A stretch of DNA of 64,000 nucleotides from an uncultured Isosphaeraceae bacterium (GTDB lineage Bacteria > Planctomycetota > Planctomycetia > Isosphaerales > Isosphaeraceae), in contig CAMFLR010000009.1 in the NCBI GenBank assembly GCA_945957605.1, positions 186,001 to 250,000 on the forward strand, in the 5' to 3' direction. The notes below the pieces were generated by a model. That model saw only the letters and a list, made by a program, of their open reading frames with translations, did no database searches and was not told the DNA's origin. The translations under genes were made by a program, and so were the position numbers. Positions 1,113 to 15,820 of the stretch are shown piece by piece. How positions within the stretch are numbered: the stretch's first letter is position 1; each line of letters starts with the position of its first letter.

Positions 1113-3077
1113 ATGGATGGCAGCGAACGGGGCGGCGACTGGCTGCTGGTGCAAGAGCTGTTCGAGCGAGGCGACCCCGCGTTTGTCGACGAGCTGAGAA
1201 TGTTCGACAACGCGGATGCTCTCGGAGCCTTTGCCCAGCGCTGGATGGCCGATCGTCGTCCTGAAGCCCGCCAGTTACTCCAGGCCTATCTCGATCGGCC
1301 GCTCAACGCCTACCGGCATGAGGCCCTGGTAAAACGACTGTTCAAGCGCGCCGAAAATAGCCAAGACGACGAGGTAATGGCGTGGTTCTTAGTCGCCTTC
1401 GATCGTGCGGTTCGTCGCGTTCAAAATGTGAGTCGTCACTTTGAATCGGTGACCTTCGACCGCGAAGATCAGGCGAATGCGATGGCGGCGGCCTGGCGTA
1501 ACCAGGGGTTTGAATCGGTCGGAGTCTGGAAGAACTGGCAGAAGAAATATCAAGTTTCCGGGCGGCGAATGGAGCCCATCGCGGTCATTCCACCTGACAC
1601 AACAATGCCGCGCGGCATGATGATGCCCGCGGTTGACGTTTCATCGTGGAACTCAACGGCACGAAGATATGAACAATTCACGGTGCCAGACTGGGTCTAC
1701 ACACTCAAGCTGAATCCGAGCGATTTTCGCGAAAAGGCAATCCTCTCCGCAGCCAGCCGCAAAAAGCTCCAAAGCCGGCGTCTGTTTTCACTCAAGACGC
1801 GCTATTACTTGCAGCGCCGCGCCTGGCGGTATTTCCGCAAACTCGGCCGATCGCGGCCGCAAGATTACATCGCGGCGATAAAACCTGCCCTGCTCCAGTA
1901 TCGCGACGAAGACGCTTCCGACGGTATATCACTTCTCGATAACTGGGGCCTGATGCACGCGCTGTTTCATTTCAGCGATGTCATCAAATTCACGGAACGG
2001 AACGTACAGGTTACCGAAGGCCGCGCACTGGCCGACCTGGAGCCTGCGCCAATCTTCGCCAAACTCTGGAACGCCCAGCCACGCGCGTTCGTCGACTTGC
2101 TGCTTCAGGCGAGAAGCCGCGCAGTAAAAGGTTGGGCGACGAGGATGATCCGCCGGAACCTCGCGGCGATCGCGCCGTTGTTCTCTCTCGAGGAGCGGCT
2201 CAGCCTCCTTGCGAACGACGATCCCGAAGTCGTCAGTCTCGCTGCCGACCTGCTCCGCAACGATCCATCGCTCGCCGAGATTCCCGTCAAGCGCTGGTTG
2301 CAACTCGTCGACACATCGAGCCCAACTGCGCTCGAACTGCTTACTGAACTCATGAGTCGGCTGATTCCGCCGGAGCGCATCACGCTGATCGAGGCGTGTC
2401 GTCTTGCAATGGTGCGGCCATTGCTAGTCGCGCGAATGGGCTTTTTGTGGCTGAAAACCAAATCGCCGCATAATGACGAGGAATACAACGCACTGCTCGG
2501 GCTCGCCGATGCGGGTTCGCAACCGATCCGCGCCGAGATGCTCGCGTGGGTGGTCGCTGTCCTGTCGGCCTCGCCACTTTTCCGCAGCGATTGGGTTCTC
2601 GACTGGCTTGATTCGTCTCGCGAAGATGTTCGCAAATCGGCGTGGAATTGGTTTGAGACCGACCCCAGAGTTGCGAACGACGTCTCTCTCTGGCAGCGGC
2701 TCATGGAATCGCCCTACGACGATATTCGGCTGGGACTCGTTCATTTGTTCGAGGCGAGGACGCGGGGTGCGGAATCGATCAAACTCACACGCGGCGATCT
2801 CGATCCCGAGTTATTGAGGCTGCTCTGGGCTTCGGTCCTTCTGAACATTCATCGTGGAAACCGGGCCAAACCGGTTGTAGTCCAGCAAATACTCGCGCGG
2901 ATTGAATCGAAGCCGAACGACCTGCCTCAGTTACTGCCGTTGCTGGCCGTTGCTCTGCGGTCTCATCGCGGTCCAGAACTTCGCGCGGGATTGGCGGCAA
3001 TGGCACGGTTGGCGAGTCGCGACGAGTCGTTTATCGAGCTCATTCGTCAATCGATTCCTGAACTTCAGTTCCAGTGA
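1113..3077 (+). CDS. HEAT/ARM-repeat-like protein of retron cassette
   Basis: A 654-aa soluble protein without signal peptide. The N-terminal ~300 residues hold an unclassified region with a basic patch rich in Arg, Lys and Tyr (about residues 215-250). From about residue 330 to the end it consists of successive amphipathic helix pairs of roughly 35-40 residues with Leu/Ala-rich cores, ending with LARIESKPNDLPQLLPLLAV-like helices, as in HEAT/ARM solenoids. Such proteins act as scaffolds or sensors. The next gene starts about 60 bp downstream on the same strand and encodes a winged-helix/SWIM protein, followed by a retron RNA and RT. An ARM-like plus WHSWIM pair is what I recall for type XIII retrons, so a role as part of the effector/sensor module is inferred. 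The molecular activity is unknown. Confidence 0.72.
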   Translation: MDGSERGGDWLLVQELFERGDPAFVDELRMFDNADALGAFAQRWMADRRPEARQLLQAYLDRPLNAYRHEALVKRLFKRAENSQDDEVMAWFLVAFDRAVRRVQNVSRHFESVTFDREDQANAMAAAWRNQGFESVGVWKNWQKKYQVSGRRMEPIAVIPPDTTMPRGMMMPAVDVSSWNSTARRYEQFTVPDWVYTLKLNPSDFREKAILSAASRKKLQSRRLFSLKTRYYLQRRAWRYFRKLGRSRPQDYIAAIKPALLQYRDEDASDGISLLDNWGLMHALFHFSDVIKFTERNVQVTEGRALADLEPAPIFAKLWNAQPRAFVDLLLQARSRAVKGWATRMIRRNLAAIAPLFSLEERLSLLANDDPEVVSLAADLLRNDPSLAEIPVKRWLQLVDTSSPTALELLTELMSRLIPPERITLIEACRLAMVRPLLVARMGFLWLKTKSPHNDEEYNALLGLADAGSQPIRAEMLAWVVAVLSASPLFRSDWVLDWLDSSREDVRKSAWNWFETDPRVANDVSLWQRLMESPYDDIRLGLVHLFEARTRGAESIKLTRGDLDPELLRLLWASVLLNIHRGNRAKPVVVQQILARIESKPNDLPQLLPLLAVALRSHRGPELRAGLAAMARLASRDESFIELIRQSIPELQFQ

Positions 3078-3137
3078 CCGCGCGACGATCTTCACAGTGA
3101 CACATTGGAAAGAAATGGCCTGAAAACGATTATCAAT

Positions 3138-4832
3138 ATGAATATTACATTCGCATATCGAGGTCAGAGCGCTATTGTGTCGCAACGCGATAGCCTGGCG
3201 ATCTCGCTGGCGCCGAATCTACGACGTGATCGCGTTGCATTCGAAGGGGTGCTAAGGCAGCCACTTCGGTTTCGCGAGGCGGTGGGCGCGCTTCACGATG
3301 TTGTCGTCAGCGATCTGCGTTATCAGCAGAAAGATGATTCGGCGTATCAGGCGTATCTTGCAGAGCGCAAAAAGACTGAAAATGATATTCGACGCGCTGT
3401 TTCGGCTCAGGCTAGAGAGGTGATGACTAAGCAGGCTGCTGGGTTATCGAAGGCGGAAGTCGATGACATTACGAGTCGGTATGGCAAGATGAGGTCGCTC
3501 TACTGGAAAGCCCGGCAATCTTACTCGAATCACCTCCTGCGGTACGATCCCGAACTCTGGCGCTTGCTGATGCCGTGTGATCCTGTCATCACGGTTGCTC
3601 CCGATGCGCTGTTCTTCGAGTGCTTTAGCGCCGATGAGAGTAGCTATGGATGTTTGACGCTCGATCGCGGTGCGTTTAGCCAGGAACATAATGTCGCGCT
3701 CGGTACCACGAACGTGGATTACTCGTGGTCGCTCTACGAACACTTCCAGAAGCTGCGTAGCTACTGCGAAACGCGGTTTCAGATCGACCCATCTGGTTTT
3801 GAAGTACGAACCGAGCAGCAGGCGGACTATCGCGAAGAGAAGATCGACCTGCCGCAAAGCTGGCTGAGAGGCTTCATGCAGGTTCAGGCGGCGATGAGCC
3901 TGCCGATGCGCAAGGTGCCCGTTAGCCGCGAAGGGATCTACAACGTTCTCGCGTTTTTGAAACGCCATCGCGCAGCAAAGAGCCCTCGCGCAGTGCGATT
4001 CGAGCTCCGGCCGGGCAAGCCGGTGGTGATGATTCTCGAGCCCTGGGAAAAACGCATCACATTGCACTCGAATGTTTACTCAGGTGCGCGATCGGAAGAT
4101 ATTCGCGTTTGGGGCCGCGATCGCCTGCGATTGCTGGCACGGTTGCTTCCACTCCTCGATGAGGCTGAGGTCTATCTGCTCGGAACCGGCTTGCCGAGTT
4201 TCTGGTCGATTCGCATGGGCGAGATGCGTCTGCTGCTCGGCCTTTCGGGCTGGACTGCTAATGACTGGACCGGATCGACCGCGCTCGATCAACTTGCTCC
4301 ACCGGCCGAGCCTAGCCCTGCTCTGCTGGGAGACATTGCCAACGTATTCCGCGATAGCCCGACGCGAACTTTCGAGGAGATCCGTCAGCGCACTGGTGCG
4401 GCGCCGGCGTTTGTGGCGGCGGGTCTCAATCGCCTCGCCTTGATGGGGCAAGTGATTCACGATTTACACGCAAAGGTCTATCGCTGGCGCCAGATTATGC
4501 CTGTGCCGCTTGCCCTCGATCAGATGACTCCCGAAAGCCCAGAAACGGCTGCCGCCAAACAATTGGTGGAGCGAGGGAGCGTGCACGTCACGCGCGACGA
4601 TAAGCGTCCCGATGGCCTGCGTATTCTCGAAGGCTCGGTGCCAGAGCGACCTGTTTCGCTGCTGCTCGACGCCGATGGCCGAATGCTTCGCGGCAAATGC
4701 ACATGCTCTCACCACTTTACGGGAGGGTTGCGTAAAGGACCATGCCGCCACTTGCAGGCGCTTCGTGAAAGTGCAACAGCCCAGTTGCGAGCGCCGTCGA
4801 TGGACGCCTGGTATGCTTCGCTCGGTTCTTGA
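3138..4832 (+). CDS. Winged-helix + SWIM zinc-finger protein (WHSWIM) of retron cassette
   Basis: Starting at ATG 3138 gives 564 aa; an in-frame TTG at 3105 would add 11 residues but has no better ribosome site. Near the C-terminus the zinc-binding SWIM signature CxC-x12-CxH is complete: Cys521, Cys523, Cys536 and His538. Before it, about residues 398-450 read as a winged helix (sequence around EEIRQRTGAAPAFVAAGLNR, ending in a short beta wing with VYRW). The N-terminal 350 residues are unclassified and include a charged helical stretch near residues 75-125. SWIM domains bind DNA or proteins. With the ARM-like gene upstream and the retron RNA and RT downstream, it is inferred to be a structural or effector component that recognises msDNA or its loss. 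This domain combination fits type XIII retrons from memory of the published classification. Confidence 0.8.
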   Translation: MNITFAYRGQSAIVSQRDSLAISLAPNLRRDRVAFEGVLRQPLRFREAVGALHDVVVSDLRYQQKDDSAYQAYLAERKKTENDIRRAVSAQAREVMTKQAAGLSKAEVDDITSRYGKMRSLYWKARQSYSNHLLRYDPELWRLLMPCDPVITVAPDALFFECFSADESSYGCLTLDRGAFSQEHNVALGTTNVDYSWSLYEHFQKLRSYCETRFQIDPSGFEVRTEQQADYREEKIDLPQSWLRGFMQVQAAMSLPMRKVPVSREGIYNVLAFLKRHRAAKSPRAVRFELRPGKPVVMILEPWEKRITLHSNVYSGARSEDIRVWGRDRLRLLARLLPLLDEAEVYLLGTGLPSFWSIRMGEMRLLLGLSGWTANDWTGSTALDQLAPPAEPSPALLGDIANVFRDSPTRTFEEIRQRTGAAPAFVAAGLNRLALMGQVIHDLHAKVYRWRQIMPVPLALDQMTPESPETAAAKQLVERGSVHVTRDDKRPDGLRILEGSVPERPVSLLLDADGRMLRGKCTCSHHFTGGLRKGPCRHLQALRESATAQLRAPSMDAWYASLGS

Positions 4833-4924: not shown

Positions 4925-5143
4925 AACGAGGTGGACCGCTTTCCGAGACCACCATGCTGCGGCGTTCCGCCGTGGCCGAGCTAGCTTCCTAGATTGCTTC
5001 CCCAGGAGCGTTGTTCTTTTGGCCCGCCACGCCTCCCGTACGGCGGGCTGAGTCAACCGTTGTCCCCGCCGTACGGGAGGCGTGGCGGGCCTCGGTGAAC
5101 GCCCCTGGTCGTCGCTTCGAAGTCGGAAGCGGTTCACCTCGTT
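4925..5143 (+). ncRNA. Retron non-coding RNA (msr-msd)
   Basis: This 219-nt segment lies between the WHSWIM gene and the RT start and folds as a retron RNA. The ends (4925-4946 and 5123-5143) pair over 21 bp with one bulged T (4942) and one G-T wobble, as expected of a1/a2. Just inside a1 are two small stem-loops, 4949-4975 (CCAC/GTGG plus GGCG/CGCC) and 4981-4992 (CTAG-cttc-CTAG), in the msr position. Then comes the msd: a basal stem 5002-5012 with 5098-5108 (10 of 11 paired), an internal loop, and a perfect 27-bp stem 5021-5047 with 5065-5091 closed by a 17-nt loop. The RT begins 34 nt after a2. In retrons the RT copies the msd into ssDNA linked 2'-5' to a branching G in the msr; I cannot fix the branching G here. 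A predicted msDNA of about 100-110 nt is inference. Confidence 0.92.
5021..5091. repeat. Perfect 27-bp inverted repeat, msd stem
   Basis: Bases 5021-5047 are the exact reverse complement of 5065-5091, with a 17-nt spacer (5048-5064). A perfect 27-bp palindrome is far beyond chance in 64 kb. Its placement at the tip of the msd, inside the a1/a2 duplex, explains it as the retron reverse-transcription template. The GC-rich arm could have been derived from a dispersed REP-like repeat, which a genome-wide copy count would show. Confidence 0.95.
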
Positions 5144-5177: not shown

Positions 5178-6833
5178 ATGAATCTCTTCGAGTTGATCCG
5201 CCGGCTAGTCTTCGGCGACCCGCCTCAATCCACCCGCGAAGTTCGCTTCCTCGACGAAGTCCCGCCACCGCCACCGCCGCCCGTATCAAGCAATCCAATC
5301 CTGTCACCAACGGCTTCGATTCCCGAACCACAATCCGACCCCTATTTTGTCGCTGACGCGAACGGGCCGGCGATCAAGGCGAAGCGGTCGTTTGACCTTA
5401 ATCCCAATACGTACGCACCAATAACGCGGCAGGAGATCAAGAACGCGGCCAAGGGAACGAGCCTGTTCGCCAATCCGTGGTTCGGCCGTCGCGACCTCAT
5501 TCCGCCTGCCGATGATCCTCGAACGCAACTGATCGACCGCGCGCTCGTAACTCAGGGGCTGCTCTCGCCCGAGCAACTGCACGAGATTCACGAGATCGGC
5601 GCTCTGATGGATCAGATCAAGCCGACCTTTGCTGCAATCGACCACAAAGCAGCGGTCGAAGGTGAGGCGGCCGTTGCGGCAGACCGTGAGGCCCGTGCGC
5701 GATTGAAGGCGCGGAAAAAGGCCGAAGCGGTCGAGCGCAAAAGACGGCGAGCAGCTGAAATCGCACATCGCAAAGCAACCGAGATCACGTTTCTGGGACG
5801 AGGTGTCAGCGGACGGCTCGGCGATCATCGCTCCGACGTTGATGCTCTGACGACGGCTGGGCTTCCCGTTCTGTCGAAACCGGCTGACCTCGCGGCCGCG
5901 CTCGGGATTTCAATCTCGAAACTTCGCTGGCTGGCATTTCACAGCGAGGCGGCGTCGCGGGTTCATTACGTTCAGTTCACCGTACCGAAAAAAAGCGGTG
6001 GTACTCGCACTCTGAGTGCGCCGTATGTTGGCCTTGCCAAAGCGCAGCGCTGGATACTTGATGAGATCATCAATAAGTTACCCGTGGAACCGTGTGCTCA
6101 CGGATTTGTGACGGGACGAAGTATTCTGAGCAACGCCCAGCCGCACTGTCAGAGGGCGATTGTGGTGAATATGGATTTGCAGGGGTTCTTCCCCAGCATC
6201 GGATTCCCTCGCGTGCGGAGCGTGTTCCAGAGGCTCGGCTATTCGCCATCGGTGGCGACGATCCTTGCCCTGCTCTGCACCGAATGCCCGCGCAGGACGG
6301 TGATTTATGATGGTGTGACCTATCACGTCGCAACAGGGAAACGCGGGTTGCCTCAGGGGGCTTGTACGAGTCCAGGCCTGTCAAATCAGGTCGCGCGCCG
6401 GCTTGATAAACGGCTAACGGGCATGGCCACAAAGCTTGGTCTCTCATACACCCGCTATGCCGACGATCTGACGTTTTCGGGCGATGCCGAACTTGAAGGA
6501 CGAGTCGGCTACCTCATGGCCAGAATCCGCCACATCGCTCAAGACGAGGGATTCGCCGTCAACGAAGAAAAGAGCCGGGTTCTTCGGCAAGGCACTTCAC
6601 AGATGGTGACTGGCCTTGTCGTTAACGATCGACCAGGCGTCCGTCGCGAAGAAGTTCGCCAGCTCCGTGCGATTCTTCACAAGGCGCGAATTGAAGGGCT
6701 CGAGAAGCAGAACACGTTTGGCCATCCGCATTTTGTCGCGTGGCTTCAAGGAAAAATTGCCTTCGTGGCGATGGCACGACCGGAAACAGGCAAAAAGCTT
6801 CGCGACGAGTTGGATCGGATTCTAAAAGTCTGA
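5178..6833 (+). CDS. Retron reverse transcriptase
   Basis: A 551-aa RNA-directed DNA polymerase. The palm motifs are complete: MDLQGFFPSI with catalytic Asp333 (motif A), LPQGACTSP near residue 390, and YADD at 427-430. Two retron hallmarks are present: NAxxH at 319-323 (NAQPH) and VTG at 477-479. The start is ATG 5178, 34 nt after the retron RNA; an in-frame GTG at 5082 would lie inside the msd hairpin and is rejected. The first ~230 residues are an unusual extension: a proline run (about 29-35), a long Lys/Arg/Glu/Ala-rich predicted coiled coil (about 155-200), then a small helical segment before the VPKKSGGTR fingers motif. It should synthesise msDNA from the adjacent RNA. A weak hairpin downstream lacks a T-run on this strand. 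No maturase, endonuclease or integrase domain is visible, which argues against a group II intron. Confidence 0.95.
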   Translation: MNLFELIRRLVFGDPPQSTREVRFLDEVPPPPPPPVSSNPILSPTASIPEPQSDPYFVADANGPAIKAKRSFDLNPNTYAPITRQEIKNAAKGTSLFANPWFGRRDLIPPADDPRTQLIDRALVTQGLLSPEQLHEIHEIGALMDQIKPTFAAIDHKAAVEGEAAVAADREARARLKARKKAEAVERKRRRAAEIAHRKATEITFLGRGVSGRLGDHRSDVDALTTAGLPVLSKPADLAAALGISISKLRWLAFHSEAASRVHYVQFTVPKKSGGTRTLSAPYVGLAKAQRWILDEIINKLPVEPCAHGFVTGRSILSNAQPHCQRAIVVNMDLQGFFPSIGFPRVRSVFQRLGYSPSVATILALLCTECPRRTVIYDGVTYHVATGKRGLPQGACTSPGLSNQVARRLDKRLTGMATKLGLSYTRYADDLTFSGDAELEGRVGYLMARIRHIAQDEGFAVNEEKSRVLRQGTSQMVTGLVVNDRPGVRREEVRQLRAILHKARIEGLEKQNTFGHPHFVAWLQGKIAFVAMARPETGKKLRDELDRILKV

Positions 6834-6912: not shown

Positions 6913-9900
6913 TTACTTCGGATACTTGTCCAGCGCTGCGCCAACCGCTTTACCGATAGCCCTGTACCAAAGATCCTTCGCGAGCACTTTTCCGTCGGGG
7001 CCAATCACTATGGCGGCTGGAGTTTTTTGGTCGTCAACCCCATAGGCTGAGCTGATCGGGTTCGACATTGAACCGATGATGGCCTGGTCCCACTGTTGTC
7101 CCTTCTCTTCGATAAACTTCCTCGCCTCGGTGTTGTCAGCAGCGGAAAGCAGGCTGAGAATTGTGAAGCGCGGATCTTTGCCGAACTTCTGGTGCACCTC
7201 GTTCAACCGAGGAACTTGCAGTCGAGACTGCATATCCCACATCGTTCCGAAGTCGAGCAGCAAAACTTTGCCCTTGAAGTCGCCCGGCACCGCGAGCTTC
7301 TTACCATCGACTGTCGTGACTTCAAATGCGGGTGCAGGCTCTCCCACTTTGAGAACGAGCCTGGGTTGGAGTTGCAGCGCACCAAGCGCGAGCGGTTCGT
7401 CGCTCTGACCACCCGCAATCGGCGGGACAGTGAAGACATGCACGATTCTCGCGAAGGGACTGATGTTATGGTTCGGACTCTCTTCGTTCACTCGAACCGA
7501 CAAACGATACTCGCCGGGCAACACGTCATCGATTCGGAACGAGCCATCAGGTTGAAGGCCGACATTCATGGCGACGCGTTGCTCCTCATATTCGCGTCCC
7601 TCAGCGCTGTCGTACCAGCGCTGCGACCACTCGCTCCATTCTCTGTTCTCAAGTGATGTCTTTCCTCGGAACATCTTCAATGGATATGGGGTTATGGCGC
7701 GGTTGGTCTCGATAGTCGCCGTCGATCTCTCGGTAAAATCGATAGCTTTCGTCCAGCCCTTTGGCAACTCGACTCGCCCCACGATGGGACGGCCTCTACC
7801 CCCGGCCGTCACCGTGATTTTTTGGCCCGGCTCGAGCCGAACCGGCATGCCAAGACCCCAGACTCGTCCTGGCTTATCACTGCTCTCGTTTCGCGAGATT
7901 CGCAGTCCGTCGATGGGGATAACCTTCTTGAACACGAACCGGCCATCCTGATCGGTCGTCGTCTTGCGATGAAATGAGACCCTGCAAAATTCCGTCGAGC
8001 GGTTCTGCGTGAAGCCGCGTAACTCAAGATCCAGATTCCCAGCCGGCTGGCTTCCGATCATGTAGCGTCCTTCAATTTCGCCATACGGCTTCGATTCGAC
8101 AACGAGGTTCTGATCTAACGTTGCCTTGCTGGCGATCGCATAGAAGTCATCGCTCACGATTAAGGCGGCGCTCAAATTCCCGTATTGAGGAATCGAGAAT
8201 GAGCCATCGGCGCTGGTAACCTCGTCCCGACCTTTACCGTTCATGCCACGGACATTGATTCCGTTGTCGCTTATGTTGAATCCTTCGTTAAGCTGCGTGC
8301 TGTAAACACGAGCGCCGACAAGCGGCTTGCCGTCGGGACGAATCACTTTTCCGCGCGGGCCAGCCGCAATACCGGGGACGAGCGAGATGTTGTAGTCGAG
8401 TATCGTCCGTTCGTCGCGCCGGAAAGCCCGCGAAACGAAGGTTTGGAACCCAGGTGATTGCACGCGGATTTTGAAGAGATCGGCGGCAACGGGAAGGTTC
8501 ACGTGCAGTTCGCCTTGATAGACCATGCCGGAAAATCCAGCATGTGACATGGTAGTCCAGGTGGCTGGTTCTCCAGTCTTCGGGTCAACGATTCCATACT
8601 CAACCGATGCCCTGTCGACCCGCTTCTTGGTTACAGAATCGCGAATCGTGCCGCGAATCGAGTGCGATTCGAAGAGTGTGAAGGTTACTTCATCAGAGGA
8701 TGGTGGTGTGGACTCCAATATGAGGTCAAGATAGCCTTGTCGCATCACATTGACCTTCGTTTCATCATCCGGAGCATCGTTCCAGCGGAACCGGCCTTCG
8801 GCGTCGGTCCAGAAGAACGCGCCCAGATCGCGATATCCGCGCCAGGTGTCGAAGTTGACGAACGCGCCTGCAATTGGCTTCCCGCCGCTATCGACTACGC
8901 GGCCCTTGAAAGGGCGAGGCCGGCCCAGCTTGATTTCGACTTGCTGTACAGCCGATCCGATTTTCACTTGCTGGTCTCCCGGCGCGTGACCTTTGGCCAT
9001 CGCTACGAGAAACCAATCGCCCGATTTCACCTGACCAGTACGGAAATGACCGTCGACGTCGGTGGTGACGGTGAATTCTGTCAGATCAGAGAACAACGCT
9101 CCTTTATAGGAGGCGGATAGCACACGAGCCCCAGCGACGGGCTTGCCATCGGCGCTGACCACCCGGCCTTCAATCGGCACCCCCTTCTTCATGACCGTCA
9201 CGGCTGTGCCAGCGCGGAGATTGGCGATCTTGGGGATGATTTCCTTCTGGGAATAGTCTCGACCGCTGAGATAATCGTGGTGAACGACATAGAAGCCCAG
9301 TAACTCACCTGTCGTCTCGGGTGCTCCTGCCGTTTGCCATTTGCCGTCGGCACCTGAGGTGGCCAGTAGATCGAACATCAGTTCGTGGGGATCCTTCGTC
9401 TTGTAGTTATGGCTCCAAATATGGACTACTGCACCCGATATGGGATGGCCATCCTCATCGCGAATGACTCCGCCAAGCTTTTCTCCTTGATGAAGTTTGA
9501 TCGTCTCGCCATCGGGGATTGGCTTGGCAGGATCTCCGCCCCAATTAAAACGTTGCATCGCCCGATCAGCGCTCCAAACGTCGACGCTGAAACTTGTGTC
9601 GGCTGGGCCTGTGGAGTGTAAGATGTGAACATTGCCTAGCGCATCGATCTTAGGCCACTCGCGACGAAGGCCAATGCTTAACCGCACCTGGGCATTGGCA
9701 ACCGGCTCCCCCGTATCGGCGGCGACCACGTGCAGATGAAACACGCGCCCGGCGGCTTTCGGTATGGCTGCCTCTGCAACGGCCGTAGGTTCGACAACAA
9801 CGGCTGCATGCGCTTCGCGACGGACGAGTTGAATGGTGCCAACGATTGTCGCCATGGCGACCGCGAGCGAGGTGATGATCATGCGTGCGGGCAAGCCAGG

Positions 9901-10986
9901 AACGCAGCGATCGTGACCAGTGCTGCGGTCGATCTGTGCGAGTCGTCTACCAAGTTTCGATGGTCGCGCCATCGCCAGGCCAAGTGCTGGGCCGTGACGG
10001 AAATTGATGCCGGATGCCAGAGTGAGCAGTGTTTCACGATAGGACGAGCAACCACCCATTTCATGAATACAGAGGTCGTCGCACGCCCGTTCGCGAAGCG
10101 CGGTAATGGTTCGGCCCAACACCCAAACCAGAATGTGCGGCCAGTAGAGCGACTCGACCAGGCGCAGGATGATGTTCCAGAGATAGTCGTCACGCCGCAC
10201 GTGCGAAAGTTCGTGGAGCAGCACTGCATCAACATGCTGGCCGCACTTCTCTTCGGTCAGCGAAATGGGTAACACGATGGTGGGACGAAGCCATCCCAGC
10301 ACCATGGGAATCCTCACGCGCTGTGACCATACCATTTGAACGCAACGGCCAATTTCCAGCCGTTGCCGCCAATGTTCGAGTGGCTCGATCCATTTGACAT
10401 CGACGACCTCGAAGCAGTACCGCTGCAGGCGTGCGACGGCGAGAATCGAGGTGAGGAGGCGGATGATCATAACTAAGGTGATGCTGGCATAAATCCCAAT
10501 CGTCACCCATGCCCAGTCGATTGTCAGTCGCACTGTTGGCGGCGATATAGACTCCGCGTGAGCCGGTGCATCGACGACACGAGCAGGATTGGCAGGACCC
10601 GCTACGAATCTCGTCCGCGATCGCGGCGCATCGGCAACATCTTGCGAATCGAGCGAGACGAATCGTGGTGCAGGCTCGGTGTTATCGGTAGGAACTGAGT
10701 GATTATCAAAACTAGTGGAAGCAGATGCGCCGGGCTCTCTGGACGCAGTCATTTTCGCGGGTAGCAAGGCGAGGCGCGTTGAGGGCAGGCACAGCGATGA
10801 TAGTGGCAATAACAGCAAACCAATTAATCCAGCGTTGCCAACGGCTGATCCCAGAATGGCGCGCCGGCGCACTACGGCGTATTGAATTATGAGCACAATT
10901 GCAATGAGAGCAGTCGCTTTCACTGCCAGATCGATACCGAACTCGAGGATCGATTGCGACCACGACGCGACCGAAGAAGGATTCAT
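6913..10986 (-). CDS. BlaR1-like M56 peptidase with Cna-B/carboxypeptidase-regulatory repeats and thioredoxin-fold tail
   Basis: A 1,357-aa membrane sensor. N-terminal transmembrane helices (about 15-35, 45-65, 155-180) surround an M56 zinc-metalloprotease domain with HELSH near residues 258-262 and the downstream ERACDD glutamate near 299, matching BlaR1/MecR1. Another membrane helix follows near 370-390. About 410-1080 consists of repeated beta-sandwich carboxypeptidase-regulatory-like domains (recurring GxVxDxxGxPVxGAxV pattern). The C-terminal ~150 residues are an AhpC/TSA-TlpA-like thioredoxin fold (GEPAPAFEVTTVDG, then FKGKVLLLDFGT), but the usual WCxxC is replaced by MWDMQ, so redox catalysis is unlikely. 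In BlaR1 systems the sensor domain triggers the protease, which inactivates the BlaI repressor. Here the penicillin-binding sensor is absent and the signal is unknown. Its start overlaps the BlaI stop by 4 bp (ATGA), so translation is coupled. Confidence 0.9.
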   Translation of the reverse strand: MNPSSVASWSQSILEFGIDLAVKATALIAIVLIIQYAVVRRRAILGSAVGNAGLIGLLLLPLSSLCLPSTRLALLPAKMTASREPGASASTSFDNHSVPTDNTEPAPRFVSLDSQDVADAPRSRTRFVAGPANPARVVDAPAHAESISPPTVRLTIDWAWVTIGIYASITLVMIIRLLTSILAVARLQRYCFEVVDVKWIEPLEHWRQRLEIGRCVQMVWSQRVRIPMVLGWLRPTIVLPISLTEEKCGQHVDAVLLHELSHVRRDDYLWNIILRLVESLYWPHILVWVLGRTITALRERACDDLCIHEMGGCSSYRETLLTLASGINFRHGPALGLAMARPSKLGRRLAQIDRSTGHDRCVPGLPARMIITSLAVAMATIVGTIQLVRREAHAAVVVEPTAVAEAAIPKAAGRVFHLHVVAADTGEPVANAQVRLSIGLRREWPKIDALGNVHILHSTGPADTSFSVDVWSADRAMQRFNWGGDPAKPIPDGETIKLHQGEKLGGVIRDEDGHPISGAVVHIWSHNYKTKDPHELMFDLLATSGADGKWQTAGAPETTGELLGFYVVHHDYLSGRDYSQKEIIPKIANLRAGTAVTVMKKGVPIEGRVVSADGKPVAGARVLSASYKGALFSDLTEFTVTTDVDGHFRTGQVKSGDWFLVAMAKGHAPGDQQVKIGSAVQQVEIKLGRPRPFKGRVVDSGGKPIAGAFVNFDTWRGYRDLGAFFWTDAEGRFRWNDAPDDETKVNVMRQGYLDLILESTPPSSDEVTFTLFESHSIRGTIRDSVTKKRVDRASVEYGIVDPKTGEPATWTTMSHAGFSGMVYQGELHVNLPVAADLFKIRVQSPGFQTFVSRAFRRDERTILDYNISLVPGIAAGPRGKVIRPDGKPLVGARVYSTQLNEGFNISDNGINVRGMNGKGRDEVTSADGSFSIPQYGNLSAALIVSDDFYAIASKATLDQNLVVESKPYGEIEGRYMIGSQPAGNLDLELRGFTQNRSTEFCRVSFHRKTTTDQDGRFVFKKVIPIDGLRISRNESSDKPGRVWGLGMPVRLEPGQKITVTAGGRGRPIVGRVELPKGWTKAIDFTERSTATIETNRAITPYPLKMFRGKTSLENREWSEWSQRWYDSAEGREYEEQRVAMNVGLQPDGSFRIDDVLPGEYRLSVRVNEESPNHNISPFARIVHVFTVPPIAGGQSDEPLALGALQLQPRLVLKVGEPAPAFEVTTVDGKKLAVPGDFKGKVLLLDFGTMWDMQSRLQVPRLNEVHQKFGKDPRFTILSLLSAADNTEARKFIEEKGQQWDQAIIGSMSNPISSAYGVDDQKTPAAIVIGPDGKVLAKDLWYRAIGKAVGAALDKYPK

Positions 10987-11387
10987 GAGGATTCTCCTTT
11001 CTTTCGACGTTTCGGTTTGGCGGGCGAAGTGGAGGAACGGCGAAGTTCCTCTAACTGCTGCGGCGTCAGGTGTTCGTCTTCGATCAGACGCAACACAAGG
11101 TCTTCCGCCGACCCTGAAAATAGCCGCGCGAGCAATCCACCGAGCGCGAGTTTCTGCGCCTCCTGGCGTTCAACCAGGGCGCGATGGACATACGCTTTGC
11201 CCCGTACCTCGTGCGTGAGATACCCCTTGGTTTCGAGCACGCGCATGAGCGTGCGCACGGTCGAGTCGTGCGGCTTGCCTGGCAAGGCTTCGCGAACCTG
11301 GTCGGCCGTGACCTCGCCAAGCCGCCAGACGACATTCATGATCTGAGCTTCGCGCTCGGTGAGCGGTTGCAGGGTTCGTCGAGGCAT
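10983..11387 (-). CDS. blaI: BlaI/MecI/CopY-family transcriptional repressor
   Basis: A 134-aa winged-helix repressor. From ATG 11387 the sequence MPRRTLQPLTEREAQIMNVV begins the family's typical helix; the recognition helix region reads DSTVRTLMRVLETKGYL, and the dimerisation tail follows to about residue 115, ending in a Lys/Arg-rich tail. An in-frame extension to 11456 would run through an operator copy and is rejected. It overlaps the M56 sensor gene by 4 bp, the classic BlaI-BlaR1 arrangement. Two GTTAA-N4-TTAAC dyads upstream are the likely operators, implying autorepression that is relieved when the sensor cleaves the repressor. No beta-lactamase gene is adjacent, so the regulon is elsewhere or limited to this operon. 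Confidence 0.92.
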   Translation of the reverse strand: MPRRTLQPLTEREAQIMNVVWRLGEVTADQVREALPGKPHDSTVRTLMRVLETKGYLTHEVRGKAYVHRALVERQEAQKLALGGLLARLFSGSAEDLVLRLIEDEHLTPQQLEELRRSSTSPAKPKRRKKGESS

Positions 11388-11403
11388 TGTCGTCAACCGT
11401 GCT

Positions 11404-11478
11404 GTTAAAGGATTAACGGATAGAATGAAGTTAGCGTCTTCTCGCGTAGTCCGCAAGAGGTATTGTTAAAGAGTTAAC
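11404..11478. promoter_or_regulatory. Two BlaI-type operator dyads
   Basis: GTTAA-AGGA-TTAAC (11404-11417) and GTTAA-AGAG-TTAAC (11465-11478) share arms exactly, are 61 bp apart (about six helical turns) and sit between the blaI start and the upstream kinase stop. Two same-architecture dyads right before an autoregulated BlaI-family gene support an operator role; the promoter itself is not resolved. Confidence 0.75.
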
Positions 11479-11524: not shown

Positions 11525-14500
11525 TCAAGCTGTGCTGAGACTAGAGAGCACTGCCTGCAGGACCGCCGGTTCGATCGGTTTGACGACGTGTAAGTTGAAG
11601 CCAACTTCTTGCGACTTTCGGCGATCTTTGTCTTGTCCCCAGCCTGTGAGGGCGACCAGAACGATGTCTTCACCCCACGATTCCCCGCGGATTCGCTTGG
11701 CGGTTTCGTGACCATCGAGGCGAGGCATGCCAATATCGAGGAAGATCAAGTCGGGACGAAAGACAGCCGCAACTTCGAGCGCTTCGATTCCATCGTGTGC
11801 GGTTTTTGTCACGTTCCCCATGAGTTCGAGCATCATGGCCAGGCTGATGGCGGCGTCGTAGTTGTCGTCTACGACCATGATGCGTCGGCGCCCCGATGCC
11901 TTGCGCGCTCGGCCGTCGCCATCACTTGAGAGTGCGGATGAGGTTTCGACGGGCAGTCGAACCGCAAATTCGCTGCCCATCCCGCGGCCTTCACTCTTCG
12001 CTTCGACACGCCCGCCATGCATCTCAACCAGCCGCTTCACGATCGACAGGCCAATCCCAAGTCCACCCTGAGACCGCTCGAGGTCACGGTCAACCTGGGT
12101 GAACATATCAAATACCTTGGGGAGCATGTTCGCCGGAATGCCGACACCGTTGTCTTTTACGGAGATAACCGCCTCGTTGTTGGTGCGCTGAAGTGTCAGC
12201 TCGATTCGGCCATTTCGCTCTGTGTACTTGGCGGCGTTGTTGAGCAGATTCGAGAAGATCTGAACGAGTCGTGTTGAATCGGCGTTTACAAAGATCGCAC
12301 TGTTGGGAAGTTTGATGACGAGTTTGTGATCCGCCTGCTCGATGACGGGACGGCTTGTTTCCACGGCATATTGAATCACCTTCGCCAGTTCGACGCGCTC
12401 CTTCTTCAACTCGATTTTTCCTCGGCTGATTCGGCTCAGGTCGAGCAAGTCGTTGATCAGTCGCACCATCTGTGCAAGTTGCCGTTCCATCATGCCGCGG
12501 GCTTCGGCTGCCATCTGCTCAGTCGTTCCGTCCAGTTGCAGGATTTCCAGACCATTGCGAATCGGTGCCAGTGGATTGCGAAGTTCGTGCGCTAGCGTCG
12601 CCAGGAATTCATCCTTGCGACGGTCGGCATCCTGCAATTTGCCGATCAGTCGCAACCGCTCATAAGCCGCGGTGACGTACCGGCAGATCGTTTGCAGGAA
12701 GTCCAACTCTTCAGGATCGAACTCGTCGCGGGTGCGGCTCGCGAAGGACAACGTGCCGAGTAGTTCGCCGCCGGTCATCAGCGGATTGCAGGCATAGGCG
12801 CGGATGCCGAACGACTTCACCAATTGGACCTTCGGGTCGTCGGACTCCTGAATGAACGTAGCGGTCAGCGGTTCGCGACGAACGGCCACGGTGCCGCAGA
12901 TGGCCTGACCAAATGCCAGGTGCTGAATCGAGCGGACGGTTTCTTTTGGGATACCAATGCACGACGCCAGTTTCAGACCGGTGCCGCTTTCGTTCACCAT
13001 GAAATTGAAATATGTGTCGAGCTTGAGTTGCGGTCCAATCTTGTGGAAAAGTTGCTGCAACATCGTGTCGGGATCGTCAGTGGTGAGCAAAACGGCGGCT
13101 GCTTCCCAGAGCAGTCGCATTCTCTCACCACCCTCGCGCAGCTTGACCTCCCCTTCCTTGCGTGGGGTTACATCGCTGGCCATACCAAACCACTCGATGA
13201 TCTCGCCACGATCATCGAGCATCGGAATCGCGCGCGAGAACGCCCAACCAATCGAGTTATCGACTCGTAAAACGCGGTGTTCTAGCTCAAACACGCACCG
13301 GTCTCGGACCGCCGTCTGAATCACCTCCAAAACATGCGCTTGATCGCCGGGGTGGATGTACTTCTCCAGCCACGTCTGGCTTGGCTCGTTCGTGTCGGGA
13401 ATGAACTCGCGGCCCTGGAGGAAGCGCATTTCGGACCAGTCCGCACTCATGCGGTAAACCACATCCGAACTCGCGTGAACGAGCGCCCGGAACCGCTCTT
13501 CGCTTTCTCGAATCGTATCATTGACCTGCCGGCGGAGGTGAGCAATCTGTGTGTGCGCGCCAATACGCGCGAGTAGTTCACGAGCGCTGAATGGCTTTAC
13601 AAGATAGTCATCGGCGCCGGCTTCCATGCCTTCAACGCGGCTCTCTTCCCCAGCGCGGGCTGTTAGCATCACGATCGGCAGCGCGTTGGTGCGTGGGTCG
13701 GAACGCAGCGCTTTCAGCAGGTCGAACCCATCGATATCCGACATCATCACGTCGGTTAAAACGAGGTCGGGCAGTTCTCGACGAATGGCTTGCAAAGCCT
13801 CTCGACCATCAGGTACAGCTTCGACGTGATAATGCGGAGAGAGGATGCGCTGAAGATATTGCCGCATGTCGACATTGTCGTCGGCGAGCACGATGCGGGG
13901 ACGGTGGCCCACAGCCTGATCAATCGATTTCGTTGTGAGTTCAACTTCGCCGATGAGCGTCGTCGTTTGATCTTCTGTCGTCGCATCGGGTAGCCAGCGC
14001 AATACTTCGTCAACGTACTGGCCTGCGCGAAGTCCGGTCGATTGCACTCCCAATTGATGAGCAACTTGTTTGCCTGGAAGGTGCGCAGTGCCGAATGGCA
14101 TCGTCACGATGAACGATGTCCCCGCGCCGACTTCGCTTTCAGCGCGAATCTCGCCGCCGTGGAGACGCACGAGTTCTCGCACCAACGCGAGGCCGATGCC
14201 CGAACCTTCCTGAGATCGCCCTGTGACGCCTTCGACTCGATGAAAACGCTCGAACAGCCGCGGCATTTGGTCGGCCGGAATTCCCACTCCCGTATCGCGC
14301 ACAACCAACTCTGCATATTCACCCGAACTGCGTAGCGTAATCTCAATTCGCCCTTTGAGTGTGAACTTGAACGCGTTCGAAATCAGATTGAGAACGATCT
14401 TCTCCCACATTTCCACGTCGACATACACAGGCTCAGAAAGCGGGTTGCAGTCGGCGATCATTTCGAGTCCTGCTTTCTCGCAGGCCGATCGGAAGTTGCT

Positions 14501-15820
14501 CGCAAGGTCGTTCGTGAGCGCTGCGAGATCGACAGGTTGGTAAGAAACCTGAACGCGTCGCGCTTCGATTCGTGAGAAGTCGAGAAGCGTGTTTACGAGC
14601 TTCTGGAGCCGCAGTGCGTTGCGTTGAAGGGTTAACAATTGATCGCGCAGCCGACCGTCATCGGTCTCGCGAATGGCGTCGTCGAGTGGCCCAAGGATGA
14701 GTGTCAGCGGTGTGCGGAATTCGTGGCTGACGTTTGAAAAGAAGGTCGTCTTGGCGCGGTCGAGCTCGGCCAGTGACTCGGCGCGGCGTTTCTCTTCCTC
14801 GAACGCACGTGCGTTAGCGATGGCGGTGCCGATTTGAGTCGTCACAAGTTCCAGGAAGCCGCGGTAAGGATCGTCAAGGCTAAGATGGCTGCTGATCCCT
14901 GTAATGAAAAACCCGGCGGGTTCGTGAGGCTTGCCAGAACTGATCGGGAATACGAGTGCGGTTTGAGGCGGGTCGGGCCAGGGACCGGCCGGAATGAATT
15001 CGAATCGTGCGTGTAGATCCGTAACAGCCTGCGGCTGCATCGTCTGCTTTGCTTCCGCAAGCGGCCAGACGCTACCAACGGCTTCGAGATCAACGATCTG
15101 CAGTGCGATCCCCTGCTCCGTTCCAACCGCTGCGGTCGCAACCAGGCGCGCGTATTTGCCGTCGGGTTCGGCGAGATAGAGTAATGCGAAGGGAATGTCC
15201 TGGCTGTATGTTTCGAGCGTCTTTGCAGCCGCCGCGCATGCTTCTTCGGCGGTTTTCGCTTCGCCACGATGATTGGCCAGGTCGCGGAGCGCGGTCATCC
15301 TGCGCTCGCTCAATTCCTTCGCAGTCGTTTCGTAAACGGTCGCCAAAACCCCGCCAATTCCATTCGGAGCGCTTTCGTCGGGCACCGGACTGTAAGCGAT
15401 CAGCCAGTGCGTCTCTTCGTTGAATCCGTAGCGATTGATGACGAGAAGAATGTCCTCGTTCCAGGTTGCAGGACCGCCTTGAAAGGGGATGTCGATGAGC
15501 GGCCGAAGAACGTGCCAGATTTCCTGCCAGCATTCGCTGACGGGTCGGCCTAAACCCCAGGGATGTTTATTGCCAAGCACGGGGCGATAAGGATCATTAT
15601 AAATGGAAACGTACTCTGGCCCCCACCACAGCAACATGGGCAAACGGTTCGACAGCATGAGCTGGATCGCCATCCGGAGCGCAGGCGACCACGACTCAGC
15701 CGGACCAATCGGCGTGGTGGACCAGTCGAACGCGCGGATGCGCTCTGCCATCTCTCCGCCTTCGCGGAGAAAGCCAAGGGCGTCGTTTTCTGAGTTTTGC
15801 TTCTTGCGATGATCGTTCAC
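11525..15820 (-). CDS. Hybrid sensor histidine kinase with two kinase cores and two receivers
   Basis: A 1,431-aa soluble multidomain signalling protein. In order: PAS-like domain (about 20-165), GAF (about 170-345), HisKA with FFSNVSHEFRTPL (His near 366), HATPase (GVGIPADQMPRLF, GSGIGLALVRELV), receiver (DLVLTDVMMSDIDG, Asp near 689), PAS (about 780-920), GAF (about 930-1065), second HisKA with ATLAHELRNPL (His near 1080), second HATPase (GGLGIGLSIVKRL) and a C-terminal receiver (FLDIGMPRLDG, Asp near 1362). It has no membrane segment, so it senses a cytoplasmic cue. Its C-terminal HisKA-HATPase-REC half is closely similar to the whole kinase-receiver protein at 23435-24823, including a shared ALTGWGQ motif, which suggests a duplicated module. 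No DNA-binding output is fused and no cognate regulator adjoins it. Confidence 0.93.
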   Translation of the reverse strand: MNDHRKKQNSENDALGFLREGGEMAERIRAFDWSTTPIGPAESWSPALRMAIQLMLSNRLPMLLWWGPEYVSIYNDPYRPVLGNKHPWGLGRPVSECWQEIWHVLRPLIDIPFQGGPATWNEDILLVINRYGFNEETHWLIAYSPVPDESAPNGIGGVLATVYETTAKELSERRMTALRDLANHRGEAKTAEEACAAAAKTLETYSQDIPFALLYLAEPDGKYARLVATAAVGTEQGIALQIVDLEAVGSVWPLAEAKQTMQPQAVTDLHARFEFIPAGPWPDPPQTALVFPISSGKPHEPAGFFITGISSHLSLDDPYRGFLELVTTQIGTAIANARAFEEEKRRAESLAELDRAKTTFFSNVSHEFRTPLTLILGPLDDAIRETDDGRLRDQLLTLQRNALRLQKLVNTLLDFSRIEARRVQVSYQPVDLAALTNDLASNFRSACEKAGLEMIADCNPLSEPVYVDVEMWEKIVLNLISNAFKFTLKGRIEITLRSSGEYAELVVRDTGVGIPADQMPRLFERFHRVEGVTGRSQEGSGIGLALVRELVRLHGGEIRAESEVGAGTSFIVTMPFGTAHLPGKQVAHQLGVQSTGLRAGQYVDEVLRWLPDATTEDQTTTLIGEVELTTKSIDQAVGHRPRIVLADDNVDMRQYLQRILSPHYHVEAVPDGREALQAIRRELPDLVLTDVMMSDIDGFDLLKALRSDPRTNALPIVMLTARAGEESRVEGMEAGADDYLVKPFSARELLARIGAHTQIAHLRRQVNDTIRESEERFRALVHASSDVVYRMSADWSEMRFLQGREFIPDTNEPSQTWLEKYIHPGDQAHVLEVIQTAVRDRCVFELEHRVLRVDNSIGWAFSRAIPMLDDRGEIIEWFGMASDVTPRKEGEVKLREGGERMRLLWEAAAVLLTTDDPDTMLQQLFHKIGPQLKLDTYFNFMVNESGTGLKLASCIGIPKETVRSIQHLAFGQAICGTVAVRREPLTATFIQESDDPKVQLVKSFGIRAYACNPLMTGGELLGTLSFASRTRDEFDPEELDFLQTICRYVTAAYERLRLIGKLQDADRRKDEFLATLAHELRNPLAPIRNGLEILQLDGTTEQMAAEARGMMERQLAQMVRLINDLLDLSRISRGKIELKKERVELAKVIQYAVETSRPVIEQADHKLVIKLPNSAIFVNADSTRLVQIFSNLLNNAAKYTERNGRIELTLQRTNNEAVISVKDNGVGIPANMLPKVFDMFTQVDRDLERSQGGLGIGLSIVKRLVEMHGGRVEAKSEGRGMGSEFAVRLPVETSSALSSDGDGRARKASGRRRIMVVDDNYDAAISLAMMLELMGNVTKTAHDGIEALEVAAVFRPDLIFLDIGMPRLDGHETAKRIRGESWGEDIVLVALTGWGQDKDRRKSQEVGFNLHVVKPIEPAVLQAVLSSLSTA

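Follow-up and report, generated by a model that had tools for sequence, protein, structure and literature searches.

The Operon and Its Genes

The window considered here, which is the whole stretch of 64,000 nucleotides that was analyzed, carries on its plus strand the genes HEAT-ARM_XIII (1113-3077) and SWIM_XIII (3105 or 3138-4832), a non-coding RNA (ncRNA; 4925-5143) and the gene RT_XIII (5178-6833), in this order. All three genes are best matched by PADLOC type XIII models (E ≤ 1e-150): the 654-residue HEAT-ARM protein by HEAT-ARM_XIII (E 5e-200), the SWIM protein, of 564 residues if counted from the ATG at 3138, by SWIM_XIII (E 1e-189), and the 551-residue retron reverse transcriptase (RT) by RT_XIII (E 2.7e-156) as well as by Pfam RVT_1. 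The SWIM_XIII reading frame opens upstream of this ATG, with a TTG at 3105. The RT (P0003) has an N-terminal extension of approximately 220 residues and contains the retron RT motifs YADD, NAxxH (as SNAQPH) and VTG, with A, H, V, T and ADD unchanged in all of the 18 RTs compared. Its closest PDB chain is the RT of retron Ec86, and the best of the fetched RTs, with 74% identity, also comes from an uncultured Isosphaeraceae bacterium. The presence of this gene trio around the RNA thus identifies a type XIII retron operon, and the PADLOC matches together with the RT motifs bear out the type that the original prediction had assigned to it.

The association of RT_XIII with HEAT-ARM/WGR and SWIM partner genes is syntenic at many loci, and the system occurs patchily, being detected in 15 of the 45 genomes of the family by a family-wide model search. 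Neither of the window's partner proteins, HEAT-ARM and SWIM, received a Pfam or NCBIfam name at E 0.01, and no toxic enzyme was recognized in the operon. The neighboring genes, as judged by eye, include a large M56/BlaR1-like protein with repeat domains (6913-10986, minus strand), an adjoining BlaI-like regulator (10983-11456) and a large hybrid histidine kinase with receiver domains (11525-15820, minus strand). The genome from which the window derives has a second RT match on another contig (G000:C14:29290-30285). Note also that a second group of planctomycete retron-like RTs (L028, L029 and L032) shows an upstream pattern of its own, where outer repeats of 18-23 bp, lying approximately 111-123 nt apart, surround a perfect stem of 19 bp that is capped by a 3-nt loop; the best PADLOC model for the L029 RT is RT_other.

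Structure of the msr-msd RNA

The RNA at 4925-5143 folds with -140.4 kcal/mol, as compared with -89.4 ± 4.8 kcal/mol for shuffled sequences (z -10.6), and none of the 200 shuffles folded as well. The original prediction had read three nested levels of pairing from this region, and the fold recovers them at the same positions, as does an inverted-repeat search for the outermost and the innermost. The outermost level is the a1/a2 duplex, formed by a1 (4925-4946) and a2 (5123-5143). The inverted-repeat search detected it as arms of 17 nt that are 94% complementary (4925-4941/5127-5143), and the duplex extends to 4946/5123 with a bulged U4942 and one G-U pair (G4934·U5134). Directly 3′ of a1, within the tetranucleotide A-G-A-C, lies G4947, the predicted branching (priming) guanosine. 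A4946, G4947 and C4949 are identical in 71 of 71 RNAs, and the position of G4947 fits the retron branch rule, which places a conserved guanosine at the inner end of a1 (PMC6868368); the 2′-5′ linkage itself is inferred from sequence alone. This guanosine is followed by an msr hairpin of 9 bp with a 3-nt loop (4956-4976), paired in 99.4% of the cells of the homologue alignment and with four pairs changed on both sides. A second msr hairpin had been proposed next to it, but it appears only weakly in the single-sequence fold and is missing from the 71-sequence consensus fold, and was dropped.

The msd region has a lower stem (5002-5012/5098-5108) consisting of 10 Watson-Crick pairs and one A5007·C5103 mismatch. 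It encloses the upper stem, whose 27-nt arms (5021-5047 and 5065-5091) are 100% complementary and lie 17 nt apart, so that the perfect 27-bp stem with its 17-nt loop (5048-5064, partly conserved between homologues) is exactly as originally described. The conserved GAAGT at 5119-5123 marks the boundary between a2 and the start of the template, although GA[AC]GT[CT] was also one of our search anchors (see below). We predict that 5002-5122 is reverse transcribed, an inference drawn from the A·C-type mismatches discussed below and from a branch point located beside the a1/a2 duplex. The msDNA would accordingly be the complement of 5002-5122, with copying predicted to start at 5122. If copying indeed starts opposite G5122 and takes in the lower stem, its length would be approximately 120 nt and not the 100-110 nt proposed earlier. 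No match to Rfam 15 was found in the window at the gathering score.

Homologues, Copy Number, and Covariation

Homologous loci were obtained by searching genomes of the window's phylum and class with RT_XIII and SWIM_XIII and by scanning 84,980 species genomes. Sequence anchors (CCC..GTTG[GT]TC, GTGAAC and GA[AC]GT[CT]) yielded 73 RNAs in 53 loci; the conservation of the three anchors is thus partly by construction, while neither AG[AC]C nor a hairpin was demanded. A covariance model was built from 71 of the 73 RNAs. In the 8.8-Mb genome of the window its sole match is the window RNA (E 1e-39, the window being part of the training set), and no further copy of the ncRNA was found there. The model also matches loci named Verrucomicrobiota (L108, L109) and two from myxobacteria (L111 Polyangium and L117 Myxococcus sp.) that sit in type XIII operons. 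The 82 RNAs that could be placed are all in sense orientation and are confined to two gaps, 41 lying before SWIM and 41 before RT. At least 20 of 58 operons carry two or three ncRNAs, usually with different stems, and this figure is a lower bound, some loci being incomplete. Some ncRNAs are also matched weakly by the model on the minus strand, which we attribute to the palindromic stem. In one genome an RT with an ncRNA (L185, G468:C540) and a HEAT-ncRNA-SWIM arrangement without a detected RT (L064, G468:C14) occur on separate contigs, which may reflect a split system or an assembly effect.

The structure is well supported by compensatory changes. In a MAFFT alignment of the 71 RNAs that was not fitted to the structure, all 27 upper-stem pairs are changed on both sides, and 7 of 11 lower-stem pairs show compensatory changes. 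Over the whole structure, changes on both sides were counted in 773 cells; shuffles gave 307 ± 16, and 0 of 500 came as high. Sliding the partner by one column lowers the fraction of paired cells from 84% to 46-47%. An R-scape-like test, run on a FastTree tree with 20 null alignments shuffled branch by branch, gave 13 pairs with E < 0.05, 12 of which fall within the structure. Finally, arms of the same RNA pair better with each other than with foreign arms in 72 of 73 cases for a1/a2, in 73 of 73 for the upper stem and in 71 of 73 for the lower stem. The covariation in homologues on which the first reading of this RNA had been made to depend is therefore present in both msd stems, with the own-arm pairing speaking likewise for a1/a2. 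From this comparative sequence analysis, we regard it as nearly certain that 4925-5143 is a type XIII msr-msd RNA with the structure, family and copy number described here.

Selection Acting on DNA or on RNA

Under strand-symmetric mutation, a single transition within a stem is equally likely to produce an A·C or a G·U mismatch. G·U is tolerated in RNA, while an A·C in the sense strand corresponds to G·T in the cDNA and is tolerated in DNA. We counted internal mismatches only, aligned blind to their type and in distinct contexts. The upper stem has 19 A·C versus 3 G·U mismatches (P 0.0009) and the lower stem 16 versus 3 (P 0.004), whereas a1/a2 leans to G·U with 8 versus 15 (P 0.2); Fisher tests against a1/a2 give P 0.0007 for the upper stem and P 0.002 for the lower one. 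Across homologues, the msr hairpin at 4956-4976 contains 149 G·U cells and no A·C at all. Type XIII loci outside the model family show an A·C:G·U ratio of 21:6 (P 0.006). These P values ignore remaining kinship, since counting distinct contexts lessens the problem of relatedness but does not remove it. A mutation bias linked to transcription was set aside, because it would hit all parts alike.

The excess of A·C in both msd stems, together with G·U in the msr and a1/a2, suggests that the msd acts as DNA, and the msr and a1/a2 as RNA, which is what a retron would be expected to show. We consider it very probable that the msd does so, although the support is indirect and no msDNA has been measured; one caveat is that an antisense RNA covering the msd alone could mimic the A·C signature. 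As this signature includes the lower stem, the cDNA end is placed at or beyond 5002.

An Upper Stem of Fixed Length and Free Sequence

Between homologues the upper stem is hypervariable in sequence, and yet its length is mostly 26-28 bp in loci of Planctomycetota, Verrucomicrobiota, Bacteroidota, Acidobacteriota and others. The rigid stem noted for the window RNA is common to the whole type XIII family seen here and is not confined to this one element. In some type XIII RNAs the stem is interrupted by one or more mismatches, so that perfection is not absolute. We additionally inspected 34 further loci of type XIII that fall outside the model family and whose record titles name Bacteroidota, Cyanobacteriota, Verrucomicrobiota, Myxococcota and others, where most hairpin spans are either 70-78 nt or 109-123 nt; the former corresponds to an upper stem of mostly 26-28 bp with a loop of approximately 20-25 nt, and the latter is consistent with the upper plus the lower stem. 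Far longer stems, with 56-57 aligned pairs and a 26-nt loop, are found upstream of related RTs in L175 (an Archangium MAG), L181 (Corallococcus) and L182, possibly representing another subfamily.

Comparisons between closely similar copies illustrate how freely the sequence changes. For the third copies in the operons L060, L065 and L072, flank identity is 0.99-1.00 and stem identity only 0.56-0.63, as against approximately 0.55 for shuffled arms, with other slots of these operons being identical. Such near-identical flanks around very different stems suggest that stems are at times replaced as blocks. Likewise, two or more copies are clear in each of L130, L147 and L150, and these combine nearly identical flanks with stems that differ; the gaps of L130 and L147 also contain additional hairpins, which resemble other repeats. 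L044, L034, L054 and L150 have two ncRNAs per gap with similar msr and flanks and different stems. Stems that are identical or one pair apart also occur among relatives or copies (L060.0/L065.0 and L094.0/L094.1). In L094 the ncRNAs at 2176-2357 and 4219-4400 differ in a1/a2, but a single compensatory base pair is all that separates their msd stems, as if the msd had been copied from one slot to the other. No exact match was found for two stem cores in 2.9 million viral contigs. In L113, which has HEAT and RT but no SWIM, the RNA at 4131-4308 between HEAT-ARM and RT has its long perfect stem broken up; this SWIM-less case is a single genome, with L113 and L184 lying on the same contig.

Predicted Folds of the Partner Proteins

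The HEAT-ARM protein is a HEAT/ARM-type alpha-solenoid with an N-terminal beta insert (AF2 model, pLDDT 93). Its PDB matches are only generic HEAT/ARM scaffolds, and no enzymatic role is therefore inferred. The SWIM protein consists of a part with a predicted clamp fold, a region resembling a winged helix and, at the C terminus, a SWIM zinc finger; the finger was matched in 36 of 55 homologues, and some match winged-helix families weakly. In its model (pLDDT 79, pTM 0.71, one predicted monomer), residues 34-372 match PCNA with Z 19.2 over 231 residues at 2.8 Å. A Foldseek search gave a PCNA-type match with E 2.3e-9 and 481 chains with E ≤ 0.001, with TM scores by target of up to 0.75, E. coli DnaN being among the matches. 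By sequence, an hmmsearch of PDB sequences up to E 10 returned no clamp among the SWIM matches. On the predicted model alone, residues 34-374 adopt a two-domain PCNA-like clamp fold. Invariant tryptophan, glycine and arginine positions at 325-335 would be located in, or next to, a helix such as those lining the channel of clamps, an inference made without inspection of coordinates.

Proposed Mechanism and Alternative Explanations

According to the mechanism that we propose, the a1/a2 duplex would set G4947 as the 2′-OH primer, and the RT would start copying at approximately 5122 and proceed across both msd stems and the loop until approximately 5002. The product would be a branched msDNA of approximately 120 nt, built around a perfect 27-bp DNA duplex that the 17-nt loop closes. 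This duplex may serve as a docking rod of fixed length that the clamp-like SWIM protein reads regardless of its sequence, and a complex of RT, msDNA, clamp and HEAT protein would hold the system inactive for as long as no phage factor alters the msDNA or strips it away. A type XIII msr-msd RNA, a docking-rod msDNA and a silent complex are together the best explanation of the data as a whole, and one that we hold to be rather probable, with msDNA production, clamp binding and phage defense being inferred. Silencing by the msDNA complex, phage triggering and toxicity are carried over by analogy from other retrons (PMC12887533; PMC13405049).

What suggests sequence-blind docking on or around the stem is that a perfect DNA duplex, fixed in length and free in sequence, accompanies a protein with a predicted clamp fold; the loss of the stem in the SWIM-less L113 is as docking predicts, though it is one case. 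That the SWIM clamp docks on the stem has a chance slightly short of even in our estimation, since it is inferred from the predicted fold and the fixed length in the absence of binding data. More tentative still is the full idea of a clamp-on-a-rod sensor, in which the PCNA-like SWIM protein would be parked on an msDNA stem measured by its length of 26-28 bp and not by its sequence, several rods would be provided per operon, and loss of SWIM would free the stem to decay. Its weak point is that it rests on one predicted monomer, no complex having been modeled.

The fixed length and free sequence of the stem would also fit with a purely structural part, a rigid spacer or lid whose length is set by contacts with the RT and the winged-helix/SWIM protein, without clamp action and without a role for the sequence. 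A winged-helix protein does hold the msDNA stem loop in type IX Kva2 (PMC13405049), and the weak winged-helix matches of some SWIM homologues point the same way, but such a part leaves the PCNA-like fold of SWIM unexplained; we think it unlikely, without being able to dismiss it. If instead the sequence itself mattered, the stem could be a bait mimicking the site that a phage protein binds or cuts, and an arms race would then generate hypervariable stems and several ncRNAs. The strongly differing stems between flanks of 98-100% identity, as in the third copies described above, and the frequent operons with two or three RNAs agree with this, as do the phage proteins that trigger other retrons, that of Kva2 binding the msDNA stem loop (PMC13405049; PMC12887533). 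However, short sites would not need a constant 26-28 bp, and the two stem cores lack an exact viral match, even if protein-binding sites need not be exact; only a rather small chance is left to the bait.

The apparent block replacement of stems between near-identical RNAs might also suggest acquired memories, that is, pieces of invader DNA resembling spacers. Captured pieces are not expected to be perfect palindromes, however, the two stems have no exact match in viral contigs, and stems that are identical or differ by one pair (L060.0/L065.0, L094.0/L094.1) are those expected of inherited parts, so that hardly any weight remains on this possibility. Still less credible is that the element is no retron RNA but a terminator, an attenuator or the hairpin of an antisense transcript. 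It does sit between SWIM and RT, and an antisense RNA hairpin would likewise show A·C mismatches in the sense strand; nevertheless, the 27-bp stem is not followed by a T-tract, and the mismatches in a1/a2 and in msr tend toward G·U, as sense RNA would have it. The a1/a2 duplex, the branch AG, the msr hairpin and the location of the RNAs in one or the other of two gaps, before SWIM or before RT, would moreover go unexplained.

Significance and Comparison With Known Systems

The analysis provides type XIII with an explicit msr-msd model, tested on an alignment, in which the branch point and the limits of the template are predicted, and this allows the msDNA to be sought directly. The mismatch-polarity test may prove generally useful for recognizing, with nothing more than sequence, those regions of an RNA that function as reverse-transcribed DNA. 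If the proposal is true, a sequence-free DNA stem of fixed length next to a protein with a clamp fold would represent a manner of holding the partner that is new for a retron. Operons with several ncRNAs, and a hairpin whose sequence is free, could moreover serve for the production of single-stranded DNA in cells. To our knowledge, neither several ncRNAs per operon, nor a hypervariable stem of near-constant 26-28 bp, nor a SWIM protein with a clamp fold has been described for type XIII. Our literature search found no link between retrons and sliding clamps and no paper on the type XIII ncRNA, but it left out the founding papers on type XIII.

Among known systems, the closest are the type XIII retrons defined in PADLOC by RT_XIII, SWIM_XIII and HEAT-ARM_XIII, which all three window proteins match best. 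The PCNA and DnaN sliding clamps have the fold that is predicted for SWIM residues 34-374, from which they differ in that SWIM has a helical insertion at approximately 68-144, extra C-terminal parts with the SWIM finger and only 8-16% identity. In the case of the myxobacterial retrons Mx162 and Sa163, an RT with an N-terminal extension, an NAG-type branch site and a long msd stem have been reported (PMC6868368), and all three traits are shared with the window retron, although the msDNA of Mx162 measures 162 nt versus the approximately 120 nt predicted here. In Retron-Kva2 (type IX) and Retron-Eco8, much as is proposed for the window retron, the msDNA is bound within a complex that includes partner proteins, and a phage protein acts as the trigger (PMC13405049; PMC12887533). 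These retrons differ from the window retron in their partner and effector proteins, the partner in Kva2 being a winged-helix protein, and in the shapes of their msDNAs.
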